Source of the DNA: Chloracidobacterium validum
Lineage (GTDB): Bacteria > Acidobacteriota > Blastocatellia > Chloracidobacteriales > Chloracidobacteriaceae
Assembly (NCBI RefSeq): GCF_018304825.1
Contig: NZ_CP072649.1
Location: forward strand, 310,001 to 374,000
DNA: 64,000 nt
Direction: 5' to 3'
The translations under genes were made by a program, and so were the position numbers. The notes below the pieces were generated by a model. The model worked only from the letters and a program-made list of their open reading frames with translations. It had not been told where the DNA came from and made no database searches. The stretch's first letter is position 1; every line of letters starts with the position of its first letter. This document shows positions 7,603-16,249 of the stretch, piece by piece.

Positions 7603-10600
7603 ATGAGCGCACCCATGCCATCGGCCCGTTCCATGGTCAACCCCATTCGTACCCAGCCAGACTGGCAAGCCCAGCGCGCGGCTTGCCAGGAGGACCCAGG
7701 CGCGTTTCATGGTGCGATTGCGCGCCGCGAAATTCATTGGTTCGACCCAGAGCGGACGGCCTGGCTCACCTACGACGAAGCGGCTGCCCGGTGGACGGGC
7801 TATGACTACCGCACCGGCGCCGCGCTATCGCTCGATGTCTCCGATTTTACTCCCTGGGCGCAGGCTTTCGACGCGGCTGACGCCCCGTACTATCGTTGGT
7901 TCGCCGGTGGCTGGACCAACGCTTGCTTCAATGAGGTGGATCGGCACGTCCTCGCCGGTCACGGCGATGAGGTGGCCTTTTACTTTGAGGGCGACCGGTG
8001 GGATCAGTCCCTGGACGATGGACGCGGCGGCCCGGTCGTTGCTTTCCCGGTCACGCGCAAGCAGCTTCTGCTCGAAACCGTCAAGGCGGCGCTCGTGCTG
8101 CAAGACCTAGGTCTCCGCGCCGGCGACCGCATTGCCATCAACCTGCCCAACATCATGGAGCAGATTTACTTTACCGAAGCTGCCAAGCGATTGGGCATCA
8201 TCTACACACCCGTATTTGGAGGTTTTTCGGCCAAAACGCTCAGTGACCGGATTCATGACTCCGGCGCCAAGGTCGTCATCACCTCGGATGGCGGGTACCG
8301 CAACGCCCAGATTGTGCCCTACAAGGAAGCGTACACCGACAAAGCGCTCGATGATTACGTCCCCGTCAACGATGTGCTGGACATCGTCCGGGACACGCTC
8401 GAACTACTCACCGAAAAATCCACCTTCGGGTGGTCGGGCGAGCATTTTCACGATTCGGTCATCGAGCATATTTGCCGGGCGGTGAGGGAAGCAATTGCTG
8501 GTGACATCACGGTTGAGCGCGCAGATGCCATGCGGGGCGTTGGGGTTGGCCTTAGCGAACTACGCATGCTGTCGGCCAAGGCAAAGTCCATGATTCGCAC
8601 CGCGGTGGCCAAGGCGTTGGTGACGACACCGGCGCGGGTGGCGGCCGTCATCGTGGTGAAGCATACCGGTCAAGACATCGTCTGGCGCGCCGAGCGCGAC
8701 CGCTGGGCCCATGAGTTGCTCGATGGCGCCGCGCGCCGCTTGATCGCGACGGCCCAGGCGCGCGGACTGGCCGTTGCGACCGAAGCCGACCTGCTCGCTC
8801 TGCCGACGGCCGACTTGGTCGGGACGCTGTATGCGCACTCGCGTCCGACACCGGTGGCCGCCGAGTTTCCGCTGTTTTTCATCTACACGTCGGGCAGCAC
8901 CGGCAAGCCCAAGGGCGTCGTTCACGTCCATGGCGGTTACGTTGCCGGCATTGCCCACACGATGAAGGTTGCCTTTGATGCCCAGCCGGGCGATGTCATG
9001 TATGTCATTGCCGATCCAGGGTGGATTACCGGGCAGAGCTACCTGATTTCGGCGGCGTTGACGACGCGGGTGACGAGCGTCATTACCGAGGGCGCGCCGA
9101 TGTTCCCCAACGCCGGACGGTTTGCCTCCATCATCGAACGCTACCGGGTCAATATCTTCAAGGCGGGTTCGACCTTTCTCAAGGCGATCATGGCCGATCC
9201 CCAGCATCGCGCGGACGTGGAACGTTATGATGTGTCGTCACTCCACGTGGCGACCTTCTGCGCCGAACCGACCTCGCCCGCCGTGCAGCAGTTCGGGATG
9301 GATTTGCTCTGTCGGCAGTACATCAACTCGTACTGGGCCACCGAACACGGCGGCATCGTCTGGACGCACTTCTACGGCAACGACGACTTCCCGCTGCGGC
9401 CCGACGCGCACACCTATCCATTGCCGTGGATCATGGGCGATGTGTGGGTGGCCGAAGAAACGAATGAGCAAGGGAGTGTCGTGCGTCATCGGCCGGCCGA
9501 GTTCGAGGAAAAAGGCGAAATTGTCATTACCCAGCCCTACCCCTACTTGGCGCGGACGGTCTGGGGTGACACCGAAAACTTCCGGGTCATCCAGACCACC
9601 ATCGCCGATGGGCTTGACGCCGTGAGCGTCGTTCCGACTTGGCGCGGCGATATTGACCGCTACCGGAAGCTCTACTGGACGAAGTGGGCCGGGACACTGG
9701 CCTATACCCAGGGCGACTTTGCGCGGAAGTACGCCGACGGCAGCTTCAGCCTCCATGGACGTTCGGATGATGTGATCAATGTCAGCGGCCATCGTTTGGG
9801 CACCGAAGAGATCGAGGGGGCCATTCTGCGCGACAAGCAAATGAATCCAAACTCGGTCGTCGGCAACGTCATCGTCATTGGCGCGCCGCACCGTGAAAAA
9901 GGCCAGACTCCGGTCGCCTTCATTCTCACGACCGAGGGCCGCAAGTTGACGACCGACGATGAGCGGCGGTTGTCGGAACTCGTCCGGCAGGAAAAGGGAT
10001 TGACGGCCGTCCCATCGGATTACATTCCGGTGACGGCTTTTCCCGAAACGCGCAGCGGCAAGTACATGCGGCGCTTCCTCAAGAGCCTGCTCTTCAACGA
10101 GCCGCTGGGCGACACGACGACGCTCCGCAACCCGGAAGTGCTGGACGAGATTGCCGCCAAAATCAAAGCCTGGCGTGAAAAGACGCGCCTGCGCGAGGAA
10201 AGCCGCGTCTTTGAAACCTATCGTTACGTGCGCGTGCAGTACTTTGACATCGTGCCGCCAGGCGACGGCCAGGCCGCGCAGCGGATTGCGCTGGCGACGA
10301 TTACCAACCCGCCTGTCAACGCGCTCAATGAACGCGCGCTGGATGAGCTGATCACTGTCATCGAACACCTCGAACGGCGCGATGACGTGAAGGTGGTCAT
10401 TTTCACCGGCGAAGGCACCCGGTCGTTCGTGGCCGGCGCGGATGTCAAGCAGTTGCTTGACTTCAAGACCGTTGCCGAAGCGTCTCCGCTGCCGAACAAC
10501 GCCCACCTGGCCTTCGATAAAATTGAACGGATGCGCAAGCCGGTCATTGCCGCCGTCAATGGGGTGGCGCTTGGGGGCGGGAATGAGTTTCAAATGGCCT

Positions 10601-10740
10601 GCCACTATACGGTGAGCGAGCCAACGGCGGTGTTCGGGCAGCCTGAAATTCGCCTCAACCTCATTCCCGGTTACGGCGGCACGCAGCGGTTGCCGCGCCT
10701 GCTGGCGCTTCGGCGCGAGACAGCACCCAATGGGTCCTGA
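7603..10740 (+). CDS. Propionyl-CoA synthase, truncated after the start of the enoyl-CoA hydratase domain
   Basis: 1045 residues matching the N-terminal portion of propionyl-CoA synthase, the trifunctional enzyme (acyl-CoA ligase, enoyl-CoA hydratase, enoyl-CoA reductase) of the 3-hydroxypropionate pathway, about 1820 residues in Chloroflexus. Residues 1 to about 870 are the ligase: ATP loop YTSGSTGKPKG near 430, CEP/YINSYWATEHGGI, HGRSDDVINVSGH, and PETRSGKYMRR carrying the catalytic lysine near 815. From about 875 a crotonase domain begins, with oxyanion-hole FVAGADVKQLL and both catalytic glutamates in GGGNEF and FGQPE. It ends abruptly after YGGTQRLPRLLALRR, leaving out the rest of the hydratase and the whole reductase. 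It may still activate 3-hydroxypropionate, or be decaying. ATG 7603 follows GGAGAG at 7588-7593. Confidence 0.88.
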   Translation: MSAPMPSARSMVNPIRTQPDWQAQRAACQEDPGAFHGAIARREIHWFDPERTAWLTYDEAAARWTGYDYRTGAALSLDVSDFTPWAQAFDAADAPYYRWFAGGWTNACFNEVDRHVLAGHGDEVAFYFEGDRWDQSLDDGRGGPVVAFPVTRKQLLLETVKAALVLQDLGLRAGDRIAINLPNIMEQIYFTEAAKRLGIIYTPVFGGFSAKTLSDRIHDSGAKVVITSDGGYRNAQIVPYKEAYTDKALDDYVPVNDVLDIVRDTLELLTEKSTFGWSGEHFHDSVIEHICRAVREAIAGDITVERADAMRGVGVGLSELRMLSAKAKSMIRTAVAKALVTTPARVAAVIVVKHTGQDIVWRAERDRWAHELLDGAARRLIATAQARGLAVATEADLLALPTADLVGTLYAHSRPTPVAAEFPLFFIYTSGSTGKPKGVVHVHGGYVAGIAHTMKVAFDAQPGDVMYVIADPGWITGQSYLISAALTTRVTSVITEGAPMFPNAGRFASIIERYRVNIFKAGSTFLKAIMADPQHRADVERYDVSSLHVATFCAEPTSPAVQQFGMDLLCRQYINSYWATEHGGIVWTHFYGNDDFPLRPDAHTYPLPWIMGDVWVAEETNEQGSVVRHRPAEFEEKGEIVITQPYPYLARTVWGDTENFRVIQTTIADGLDAVSVVPTWRGDIDRYRKLYWTKWAGTLAYTQGDFARKYADGSFSLHGRSDDVINVSGHRLGTEEIEGAILRDKQMNPNSVVGNVIVIGAPHREKGQTPVAFILTTEGRKLTTDDERRLSELVRQEKGLTAVPSDYIPVTAFPETRSGKYMRRFLKSLLFNEPLGDTTTLRNPEVLDEIAAKIKAWREKTRLREESRVFETYRYVRVQYFDIVPPGDGQAAQRIALATITNPPVNALNERALDELITVIEHLERRDDVKVVIFTGEGTRSFVAGADVKQLLDFKTVAEASPLPNNAHLAFDKIERMRKPVIAAVNGVALGGGNEFQMACHYTVSEPTAVFGQPEIRLNLIPGYGGTQRLPRLLALRRETAPNGS

Positions 10741-10838
10741 CCCCGGCCCGGGCAAACCGGCTGAACCGTGGCATGAGCTTTGGAGCGATGAAACCGCGTG
10801 TGGCGCAGGGCGACGAAACCACCAGGGAAGCAAACCAA
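10715..10838. other. Junction segment between truncated propionyl-CoA synthase and trpF
   Basis: Homology to propionyl-CoA synthase stops near 10715 and recognisable TrpF sequence starts near 10870. The frame between reads through about eight extra codons to TGA at 10738-10740. The segment shows no transposase, target duplication or terminal inverted repeat I can see. An open frame upstream of the chosen trpF start could translate as MSFGAMKPRVAQGDETT, which is not part of any TrpF. It is the likely site of the deletion or rearrangement. Confidence 0.5.
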
Positions 10839-11510
10839 GTGGATGCGCCGTCGTCTCATGCTCGTTCTGAGCCGCGAACGCGCGTCAAAATCTGTGGCGT
10901 GACAAGCGTTGCCGATGCGGATGCCGCGGCCGCGGCCGGCGCGGACTACCTCGGACTAATTTTTGCCCCATCGAGCGTGCGGTCGGTCACGCTCGACGAC
11001 GCCCGGCAAATCGTGGCGGCGGTGGCCCGGCGCTGCCAAACCGTTGCCGTGTTTCAGGATGCGCCGCTCGAATGGATGCAAACGGTCGTGGCCGCGATTG
11101 GGTGTGATCTGATCCAGCTCCATGGCGACGAGCCACTGGAGGTTGCCGCTGCTTTGCCCTGTCCGGTCATCCGGGCCGTGACCGTCACGCCGGAAACGCG
11201 GCCCGCCGACGTGCTCCCCTGGACGCGGTTGGAAAACGTCGCCCACCTGCTGTTTGATCGCCCCAAGCGCCGGCCGGTTCTCGACTGGGAACTGTGCCTT
11301 CAGCCCCTATGGGAAGCCGCGCAGACGACCGCGGCCGGACGACAAGCCTTCATTGCGGGGGGACTCTCTGCGGAAAACGTCGCGGCCGTCGTCCAACGCT
11401 GGCAACCATACGGCGTGGATGTCGCTTCCGGGGTTGAATCCGCGCCGGGCAAGAAAGACGCGCGGCGCATGCAGGCGTTTTGTCGCTCGGTCCGGTCACC
11501 GGAGCGCTAG
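10839..11510 (+). CDS. trpF: Phosphoribosylanthranilate isomerase
   Basis: About 223 residues, TIM-barrel enzyme of tryptophan synthesis converting N-(5-phosphoribosyl)anthranilate to the enol-amine CdRP. Diagnostic strands are RVKICGVTSVADAD (catalytic Cys), GADYLGLIFAPSSVRSV, VAVFQDAPL, IQLHGDEPLEV, HLLFDRPKR with the catalytic aspartate, FIAGGLSAENV, and GVDVASGVESAPGKKDA at the phosphate site. GTG 10839 is preferred because AGGGAAG stands eight bases upstream and the product has family length; ATG 10773 or 10788 would prepend 15-22 unrelated residues. No other trp gene is in the window. It sits directly behind the truncated propionyl-CoA synthase, an arrangement that looks secondary. Confidence 0.9.
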   Translation: MDAPSSHARSEPRTRVKICGVTSVADADAAAAAGADYLGLIFAPSSVRSVTLDDARQIVAAVARRCQTVAVFQDAPLEWMQTVVAAIGCDLIQLHGDEPLEVAAALPCPVIRAVTVTPETRPADVLPWTRLENVAHLLFDRPKRRPVLDWELCLQPLWEAAQTTAAGRQAFIAGGLSAENVAAVVQRWQPYGVDVASGVESAPGKKDARRMQAFCRSVRSPER

Positions 11511-13545: not shown

Positions 13546-13715
13546 GCCTCGCTAGAGCAGAGCATCGAGTCGCCACTGGGTGGCGTTTACGTAGGCCAAC
13601 TATAAAACCGATGGCTTTGGAATGGGAAGGAACGGAAAGAGGAAAGTTCCGATCAACGCGACACCGGCGGCGCTTGTGATGGTTGTGCGGTCAATGGCAG
13701 ACTAAACGAGGTATC

Positions 13716-14951
13716 ATGAGTTCACCAGTTGCCGCTACCCTGGAAAAAGCTGTTCGCTTTGAGCCGCTGACGCCGCGCGAGGCCCTTGGGCTGCTCGAAA
13801 CCACCGACCCAGCGGCGCGCCAGGCCGTCTATGCGGCGGCGCATGCGTGCAAGCAGGCCCTCATCGGTGCGCGGGCGACCTATGTCGTCAATCTCAATCT
13901 GAACTTTACGAACGTCTGCGCCCTGCATTGCACCTTTTGCGCGTTCCGCCGTGATGCCGATGCGCGTGAGGCCTACGCCCATAGTATTGACGCCATTGTG
14001 GGCAAGGTCAGCCGCTACCGCCAAACCCACGGCATCACGGAAGTCACGATTCAGGGCGGACTCAACCCGGCCCTGCCGGTCAGCTACTACTTCGACCTGT
14101 TGCGTGAACTCAAGCGTGCCTGCCCGGATGTTCACCTCCATGCCTATTCGCCGCAAGAAATAGACTTCATCCAGCAGCGCAGCGGATGGTCACTGGGGCG
14201 CATCTTTGATGGGCTGCGCGTCGCCGGACAGGGAACGCTCTGCGGAACGGCGGCCGAAATCCTGGTTGAACCCATTCGTCGGAAAATCTGTCCTGAGAAA
14301 ATCACTGCCGCGCGGTGGCTGGAGATTGTCCGCGCCGCGCACCAGTCCGGGACGCGCACGACGGCAACCATGATGTTCGGCCACATCGAGTCGCCGGCCG
14401 ACCGCGTTGCCCACCTGCGCCACCTGCGCGCTTTGCAGCGCGCCACCGGTGGCTTCACGGAGTTTATTCCGCTGCCCTTCATTGCCGCCAAAGCCCCGCT
14501 TGGGCGCGCCGTCAGGCGGCGTGAGGTGGATGACGAAACCGTACTGCTGACCTTGGCCGTCGCCCGACTGTTTTTCGGGCGCGACCTCCTCCACCTACAG
14601 CTTGGGTGGGTCAAGCGCGGCCTTACGCTTGCCCGGCGGAGCTTGCACTGCGGCGCGGACGATCTTGGTGGCACGCTGCTGGAAGAGGAAATTTCCAATC
14701 GCGCCGGTTCGCGCTTTGGGGCGGCGGTGACGGCCGAACAGTTGGCCGCAACCATCCAGGCAGCCGGACTGAAGCCGGTGCAGCGCGCGACCACCTACGA
14801 GCCTGTGCGCGCAGAACCATCGGCGGCAAGCACCCAGGTATCCTTGCTCCCCCCGCCCTGCGAGGAGTTGACGACCAGCGAGCCACGGCGCAGGGCCACG
14901 CGGGTCAGCCCGCCCGGCAAAACGAAAATGTCATCGCCATACAGGATGTAG
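13716..14951 (+). CDS. cofH: CofH-type radical SAM enzyme (FO synthase subunit 2)
   Basis: 411-residue radical SAM protein. Cys68, Cys72 and Cys75 in [14 protein letters not shown] bind the [4Fe-4S] cluster. The body follows Cof[72 protein letters not shown] and [18 protein letters not shown]. CofH joins tyrosine-derived 4-hydroxybenzyl to 5-amino-6-ribitylaminouracil to make FO, the F420 chromophore precursor. The relatives MqnE/MqnC of futalosine menaquinone synthesis are the main alternative. The family normally ends near QRATTY (residue 360); here about 45 further residues are read from DNA that is antisense to the ATP-grasp gene, a 157-base convergent overlap. ATG 13716 follows GAGG. No cofG is in view. 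Confidence 0.78.
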
Positions 14952-16249
14952 GGGCGTAGGTCCACGTGGCGACCTTCAATCCGGTCACCGACAATGGTCG
15001 GCACGCGCGAGAGCTGGAGCGTGGGCTGGGCAATGTATTCATCGGGATGCGCCAAAATGCGTTCTCGGAACGCCTCCCGTTCCAGCGCTGTCGAGGCCGG
15101 GCCGACCAGCATGCCGTAACCACCTGACCCGCCGGTCGTCTTGACCACGAGTCGGTCGAGGCTGTCGAGCACATAAGTCCGCGCTTCACGGTCGCGGCAC
15201 AAGTAGGTTGGCACATTCGGAATCATCGGCGTCTCGGCCAAATAGTAGCGGATGATGTCGGGGACGTAGGCGTAAATGGCCTTGTCATCCGCCACGCCGG
15301 TGCCCGGCGCGTTGGCCAGCGCCACCCGTCCGGCGCGGTACACCTGCATCAGGCCCGGAACGCCCAGCAGCGAATCCGGCCGAAACGTTTCCGGGTCGAG
15401 AAAGGTGTCATCAATCCGGCGGTATATGACATCCACTGGTTTGAGTCCGCGGGTGGTTCGCATCTTGACGTAGCCACCTTCCACCACGAGGTCCCGTCCC
15501 TCGACCAGCTCGACCCCCATCTGTTGAGCCAGGAACGCATGCTCGAAGTAGGCCGAGTTGGCGACGCCAGGCGTCAGCACGACGACCGTGGGATTGAGGT
15601 TGTGCTCCGGCGCGAGTCGCTGAAGCGTTTCCAGGAGCTTGCTCGGGTAGGTGAAGACCGGGCGAATGGTTGCCGCTTCAAACGCCTGCGGGAGCGTGTA
15701 CTTCATCACCGAACGATTGCCGAGCACGTACGACACGCCCGACGGGCAGCGCAAGTTGTCTTCCAGGACGTAGATTTGCCCATCGCTGTCCCGGACCAGG
15801 TCGGTGCCCGTGATGTGACACCAGATGTCGTGGGGTGGTCGCAAACCACGGCAGGCTTCCAGGTAGCTTGGGTTGTTCAGAACGAGCTCCGGCGGCAGCA
15901 CGCCATCACGCAAGATGCGTTGCTCACTATACACATCGCTCAGAAAAGCATTGAGGGCGCGGATGCGCTGCTGAAGTCCGGCTTCGATCCAGGCCCACTC
16001 CCGCGCGGCAATGACCCGTGGGATCAGATCGAAGGGAAAGATTTTCTCGACGCCGTCGCTGCTGCCATACACGTTGAACGTGATGCCGAGGTGGAGGAGC
16101 GACTGTTCGGCCGTGGCCTGGCGACGCAGGATTTCGTCGTCACGCAGCGTGGCCAGCGTCCGGGCCAGGAATGCCACGTCAGGACGTGGCACGCCCGGCA
16201 TCAGGAACATTTCGTCATAAAAGTCACCAACGTCGTAAGACTCAAACAT
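14795..16249 (-). CDS. Circularly permuted ATP-grasp protein (DUF404/DUF407)
   Basis: 484 residues matching the circularly permuted ATP-grasp type 2 family. Marks include [15 protein letters not shown] at the start, [55 protein letters not shown] and [18 protein letters not shown], where the glycine-rich loop and acidic residues bind Mg-ATP. Family members are presumed amide or peptide ligases and usually sit beside an alpha-E protein, a transglutaminase-like protease and the proteasome-like Anbu. Here alpha-E and Anbu lie about 6-8 kb away on the other strand, and no transglutaminase gene is seen. The 3' end overlaps cofH tail-to-tail by 157 bases. The upstream neighbour at 16400 is on the same strand. 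Confidence 0.88.

Follow-up and report, generated by a model that had tools for sequence, protein, structure and literature searches.

The window analysed here is a 64,000-nucleotide stretch of the Chloracidobacterium validum genome (contig NZ_CP072649.1, positions 310,001 to 374,000), and the gene at its positions 7603-10740 encodes the ligase and the first part of the hydratase domain of a propionyl-CoA synthase (Pcs). The rest of the enzyme is encoded by an intact gene that lies on the same contig at a distance of 112 kb, and there is hardly any doubt that Pcs is specified in this organism by two genes split through the hydratase domain. Comparison of the sequences suggests that this probably reflects an old gene fission, giving a two-subunit Pcs in which the hydratase would be re-assembled in trans. 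The two genes jointly provide Pcs-type ligase, hydratase and reductase domains in the Pcs order, together with both hydratase glutamates (Glu995 and Glu1015), and neither gene encodes all three activities on a single polypeptide; because these sit on two chains, we regard the two-gene Pcs as a variant rather than a plain member of Pcs.

Two complementary genes

The C. validum genome (G000) is a two-contig assembly of 3,659,143 bases, and the window lies on the contig of 1,000,103 bases (C2). All features of the window gene (N-part) and its downstream neighbor are on the forward (+) strand:

7603..10740, +, N-part gene, encoding the 3-hydroxypropionate:CoA ligase and first hydratase part of the split Pcs, 1045 amino acids (frame, Pfam, 6eqo alignment)
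7603..10212, +, ligase (acetyl-CoA synthetase-like) part, residues ~1-870 (Pfam ACAS_N, AMP-binding, AMP-binding_C)
10240..10716, +, initial portion of the hydratase (crotonase) domain, residues ~880-1038, last conserved residues ...GTQRLPRLLALRR (ECH_1)
10585..10587, +, Glu995, first hydratase glutamate (motif GGGNE)
10645..10647, +, Glu1015, second hydratase glutamate (motif QPEI)
10717..10740, +, variable tail at the C-terminus (ETAPNGS), with the stop (comparison of N-part ends in eight genomes)
10773..11510, +, trpF-like gene (PRAI), directly downstream and outside the enzyme (frame, family match)

The Pfam domains of the N-part are, in order, ACAS_N, AMP-binding and AMP-binding_C, followed by profile positions 4-144 of 251 only of ECH_1. 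Its residues 19-1035 align with 27-1047 of PDB 6eqo (E=0, 1282 bits), the trifunctional, 1850-residue Pcs of Erythrobacter NAP1 and the best solved relative. An earlier sequence-only reading of this DNA had named the gene as Pcs, with a frame that stops inside the hydratase domain and retains both glutamates, and the Pfam and 6eqo alignments and the two hydratase motifs bear this out. We take K820, within the ligase motif TRSGKYMRR, to be the A10-motif lysine, and residues 995 and 1015 are presumably catalytic, with roles as in rat enoyl-CoA hydratase. No remnant of the missing part was found in the window DNA downstream of the stop, where the sequence runs into the trpF-like gene, whose start is 32 nt past the stop; taken by itself, the window locus does not encode the remainder of the enzyme.

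A profile (A1) of the C-terminal ~800 residues of nine full-length Pcs was used to search 20 genomes. Near-full matches were obtained in G000 (C2:432951-435317), G001, G002, G003, G004 and G005, with a contig-edge match in G008; the remaining matches are generic and weak, with E values from 5e-17 upwards. The strong matches start at profile positions 8-11 of 804, which is where the N-part stops. The gene found in G000 (C-part; C2:432906-435362) encodes 818 amino acids from a conserved Met and aligns with residues 1055-1846 of 6eqo, so that, from residue 27 on, only seven residues of the solved chain are matched by neither gene. Thus the reductase and the last part of the hydratase, which the sequence-only reading described as gone, are indeed missing from the window locus but not from the genome, and the ligase with half a crotonase domain, regarded there as an unfamiliar form, has its missing ~780 residues in a second gene. 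No second, full-length Pcs is present in G000 among the matches listed in the N-part and A1 searches.

The seven C-parts open with a variable leader of 16-25 residues, followed by LL(D/E)AIEI(I/L)(V/L)GGR. Upstream of the C-part in all six genus copies is an element, read by eye, of the form CATAGCGCA - spacer - TGCGATACT, located in G000 at C2:432832-432864 (near 8833-8865 of locus L059); as it is placed 41 bases before the C-part start codon, we interpret it as a putative promoter. Across the G000 genome there is a single occurrence of the exact G000-type pattern (0 for the reversed control), on which ground co-regulation of the halves through a common upstream element was rejected.

Distribution, split point and selection

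The N-part form is present in all seven Chloracidobacterium genomes and in G008, a member of a second genus. Both genes, with the same split point, were found in six of the seven, and G008 has partial copies of both halves at contig edges (contig ends truncate the N-parts of G002 and G008 on their 5' side). Neither half was found in G007 or G009, from two further genera within the family. All eight N-parts end 2-8 residues beyond the RR (RK in G008) of GTQRLPR(L/M)L(A/S)LRR. In a predicted model of the hydratase region of a full-length relative, L023 (mean predicted local distance difference test score, pLDDT, 85; best PDB match 6eqo, template modelling score, TM, 0.94), the split maps to residue 165, a one-residue break between helix 152-164 and helix 166-178.

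The sequence-only reading had offered a relic of lost metabolism or a recent loss as possible explanations. The first does not agree with the ~780 missing residues being present as an intact, conserved gene, and the second is unlikely because the end point is shared across two genera; the truncated form itself is conserved in seven of seven genus genomes and one of the second genus, an outcome that the sequence-only reading had itself named as a refutation. Its further suggestion, that the product is still used, agrees with the purifying selection described below.

An outside sample of 28 loci, drawn by a scan that reaches close relatives only and leaves distant Pcs (e.g. those of Chloroflexota) unsampled, includes three that are Chloracidobacterium-like (L011, L012, L038). 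Among the remaining 25 loci, 17 have one uninterrupted frame of 1804-1886 amino acids from the match start, three (L017, L027, L029) are open across the split point up to the contig end, three (L021, L036, L037) stop short of it, and two (L020, L024) are continuous DNA with frame changes that were taken as probable errors in metagenome-assembled genomes (MAGs). The pcs of L024, from a Burkholderiaceae MAG, has two frame changes (2759-2964), one close to the same hydratase point; this is probably a sequence error, with an independent break as a possibility. Among 396 Acidobacteriota genomes searched for the C-part with E up to 1e-60, it was found in all three of Chloracidobacterium, and the three additional matches all belong to one family, f25, and lie in longer frames. 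None of the listed NCBIfam models reaches its cut-off for the N-part (best 25 of 155 matches), the C-part (11 of 11) or full-length Pcs (best 25 of 155), and this library therefore does not separate split from unsplit forms.

Trees of the N-side and C-side (26 rows each) both recover a Chloracidobacterium clade, with support of 100/99 in each, at the same position relative to the other Pcs, which fits descent from a single fused gene better than two separate recruitments. These trees include the 17 single-frame loci together with L017 and L027. The N tree excludes G002, whose N-part is incomplete, and the C tree has no row for G006, for want of a C-part; in the C tree the partial sequence of G008 is placed within the genus, at the end of a long branch.

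Ratios of nonsynonymous to synonymous change (dN/dS) were calculated with our own Nei-Gojobori script from within-genus pairs (21 for the N-part segments, 15 for residues 1-110 and the C-part segments), and are rough, with synonymous differences of 0.52-0.60 per site. Values for the N-part are 0.115 for residues 1-110, 0.054 for the ligase (residues 111-860) and 0.042, the lowest measured, for the hydratase piece; those for the C-part, whose leader is too short for scoring, are 0.128 for the hydratase piece, 0.062 for residues 111-200 and 0.059 for the reductase. As judged by these ratios, both halves are under purifying selection. Invariant columns were defined on 17 full-length Pcs (alignments A1 and A2 were made from nine). 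A separate alignment of the fragments misplaces the leaders and some tails, and only its conserved stretches were used. Invariant residues kept in all Chloracidobacterium copies number 267/283 in the ligase, 59/62 and 5/5 in the two hydratase pieces, 17/20 in the linker and 206/222 in the reductase. A useless half-domain should not be the best-kept segment, and we consider that the half-domain of the N-part is probably in use.

Elsewhere in the window, a CofH/MqnC-like radical SAM gene (13683-14951) is overlapped on the opposite strand by its neighbor (14795-16249), a circularly permuted ATP-grasp type 2 gene.

A proposed two-subunit enzyme and its alternatives

We propose, as the most likely reading, that in an ancestor common to Chloracidobacterium and the related genus one trifunctional pcs gene broke inside the hydratase domain, at the junction of two helices. 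The second half would have acquired its own start codon and a short variable leader and, within the genus, its own promoter-like element, and the halves would since have come to lie apart on the second chromosome. Following the generally known order of the Pcs reactions, the protein of the window gene would activate 3-hydroxypropionate with its ligase and contribute both hydratase glutamates, while that of the distant gene would supply the remainder of the hydratase and the acryloyl-CoA reductase. The two proteins are predicted to bind through the divided hydratase domain, forming a two-subunit Pcs that converts 3-hydroxypropionate to propionyl-CoA; helices of the reductase-side protein would complete the hydratase site, and acryloyl-CoA would then be reduced on that same protein. 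We lean slightly towards a more specific form of this proposal, a naturally fragment-complemented Pcs in which the hydratase active site would form only on contact of the two proteins, so that two gene products would build the compartment that holds toxic acryloyl-CoA; separate control of the genes could then gate the 3-hydroxypropionate route.

Several observations weigh against this proposal. The two genes are far apart and their upstream sequences are unlike, so co-regulation of the halves is not supported. Among the segments scored, the C-part hydratase piece evolves fastest, and it has just five family-invariant columns. Furthermore, in G006, a genome of 90 contigs that is 99% complete, the N-part is intact and neither the profile nor the protein search found a C-part; 19 kb at the expected site (L091, G006:C4:138000-157000) contain the left-hand neighbors without the C-part, and the genes beyond these differ from those of the other genomes, having been replaced. 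The C-part of G006 may be hidden by a gap in the assembly, or this lineage may do without one.

The G006 genome is also among the evidence for a different outcome of the fission, in which the halves became independent enzymes: a CoA ligase for 3-hydroxypropionate or another short acyl substrate, bearing half a crotonase domain without catalytic function, and an acryloyl-CoA reductase working on its own, with dehydration left to a stand-alone enoyl-CoA hydratase. Stand-alone hydratase-like frames do occur in the genome (e.g. G000:C1:2383341-2383766, 43% identical, in a 260-amino-acid frame), and the Erythrobacter Pcs ligase domain has been used alone as a 3-hydroxypropionate:CoA ligase, according to the available portion of PMC11599936. 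An unused half-domain should drift, however, whereas the hydratase piece of the N-part is the best-kept segment measured, with its 59 of 62 invariant residues and both glutamates, and the complementary piece is retained on the reductase gene; we therefore consider independent enzymes unlikely. The new, shortened ligase proposed by the sequence-only reading is not favored where a C-part exists, and may apply to G006.

The lack of a reductase at the window locus would fit a gene in decay, left over from a 3-hydroxypropionate or propionate metabolism since lost, and the species paper (PMC12816986), in its accessible text, gives carbon-fixation genes as absent in all nine sequenced strains. Such decay is very improbable given frames that are open in all eight genomes with an N-part, dN/dS of 0.04-0.12 in all three N-part segments, and the intact missing part elsewhere in the genome. 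As the two genes span the full chain save seven loop residues, they could conceivably be joined into a normal single chain after transcription or translation; this is more improbable still, since nothing of intein size is present at the ends (N-part tails of 2-8 and C-part leaders of 16-25 residues, both variable) and trpF begins so close to the N-part stop in G000. A split intein or trans-splicing was accordingly rejected for want of extra sequence at the ends, no search with intein or intron models having been made. Assembly or sequencing error, of the kind suggested by the frameshifted pcs copies of draft MAGs elsewhere (L020, L024), has a negligible probability: the same N-part end is seen in G000, G001 and G005, each assembled in two contigs, and in four MAGs from the genus, and the C-part is distant, in other surroundings, in all three of the two-contig genomes.

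Pathway setting and relation to known systems

C. validum is a light-harvesting hot-spring bacterium. A malonyl-CoA reductase-like protein is encoded in all seven genus genomes and partly in G008, with 44-45% identity over about 1140-1155 amino acids of the query; the G000 gene (C2:754958-758389, L053) is full-length. The query was the two-part SDR protein adjoining pcs in Erythrobacter sanguineus, which we take to be malonyl-CoA reductase, its PDB relatives being labelled SDR only. The methylmalonyl-CoA mutase family is above cut-off in eight of eight genomes, and the biotin-dependent carboxyltransferase family is present in the three genomes searched for it (both are family-level assignments). 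Isocitrate lyase and malate synthase were found in none of eight genomes (controls, 8/14 and 6/14), so no glyoxylate bypass that would make an anaplerotic use of this route redundant was identified in them. The malyl-CoA/MMC lyase family (HpcH_HpaI) is above cut-off in none of the seven genus genomes and in one of the eight overall, G008 (control, 10/14), with matches below cut-off in five of the seven. The gene in G008 is at C536:1682-2341 (L069).

The 3-hydroxypropionate bi-cycle should therefore not close in the genus, and an autotrophic bi-cycle was rejected on this basis. The presence of the reductase-like protein and the mutase family, together with the absence of isocitrate lyase, malate synthase and an above-cut-off malyl-CoA lyase, makes an anaplerotic 3-hydroxypropionate route from acetyl-CoA to succinyl-CoA reasonably likely. 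Malonyl-CoA reductase would precede Pcs, with a carboxylase and then methylmalonyl-CoA mutase following, converting acetyl-CoA and two bicarbonate to succinyl-CoA; the outcome would be CO2 capture for anaplerosis, not autotrophy. If this is correct, separate control of the two Pcs genes could gate a bicarbonate-fixing route to succinyl-CoA in a phototroph reported to have no carbon-fixation genes. As a separate observation, the malonyl-CoA reductase-like protein is full-length in seven of seven genus genomes, though papers on the genus, in their available parts, state that such genes are absent.

These genes offer a concrete enzyme set for the effect of bicarbonate on Chloracidobacterium. As given in the accessible portions of these papers, bicarbonate was required for C. 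thermophilum (PMC4376005) and was later reported as stimulating but not essential (PMC12816986), there is no growth on bicarbonate alone, and B12 is required, which was ascribed to methionine synthesis (PMC4376005, PMC12816986). The authors' hypothesis was carboxylation of succinyl-CoA to 2-oxoglutarate (PMC4376005, in the same portion), and this and the 3-hydroxypropionate route are mutually compatible.

In the available portions of PMC5459899, PMC8245765, PMC12816986, PMC12214013, PMC4400912, PMC3669762, PMC4376005 and PMC3150298, neither Pcs nor malonyl-CoA reductase is mentioned for Chloracidobacterium. Among the titles and abstract openings retrieved for a split or truncated Pcs, or for the Pcs structure, none concerns a split Pcs, a scope outside which the 2012 C. 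thermophilum genome paper lies. The split of Pcs is thus likely to be unreported so far.

Two of the three enzymes listed as diagnostic of the Chloroflexaceae 3-hydroxypropionate bi-cycle in the accessible part of PMC5459899 have counterparts in Chloracidobacterium, namely Pcs and the malonyl-CoA reductase-like protein, whereas the third is the malyl-CoA/MMC lyase, the family above cut-off in none of the genus genomes. The Acidobacteriota family f25 (G075, G196 and G238; L074-L076) shares a Pcs-like reductase with Chloracidobacterium. In G075 the ligase C-terminal and hydratase domains are also on one long frame of 2411 amino acids (L075 1-4413), and the order there is ligase-reductase-hydratase, unsplit and unlike that of Pcs, as seen in the part of L075 that was read.

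The 2018 Pcs structure paper, judging by its title as cited in PMC11599936, described the fused enzyme as keeping a toxic intermediate in one compartment. A Pcs naturally cut through its middle domain makes the need for one chain in such containment testable, and offers a split site found in nature for use in engineered 3-hydroxypropionate pathways. The Chloroflexus aurantiacus Pcs (Caur_0613) is given as one gene in the available part of PMC3150298. Compared with it and with the Pcs of Erythrobacter sp. NAP1, the Chloracidobacterium form has the same three domains in the same order and both hydratase glutamates, and is ~57% identical to NAP1 Pcs on each side of the split. It differs from these single-chain enzymes in having two genes and two chains, with the break in the hydratase domain, a start for each half, and, in G000, 112 kb between them.

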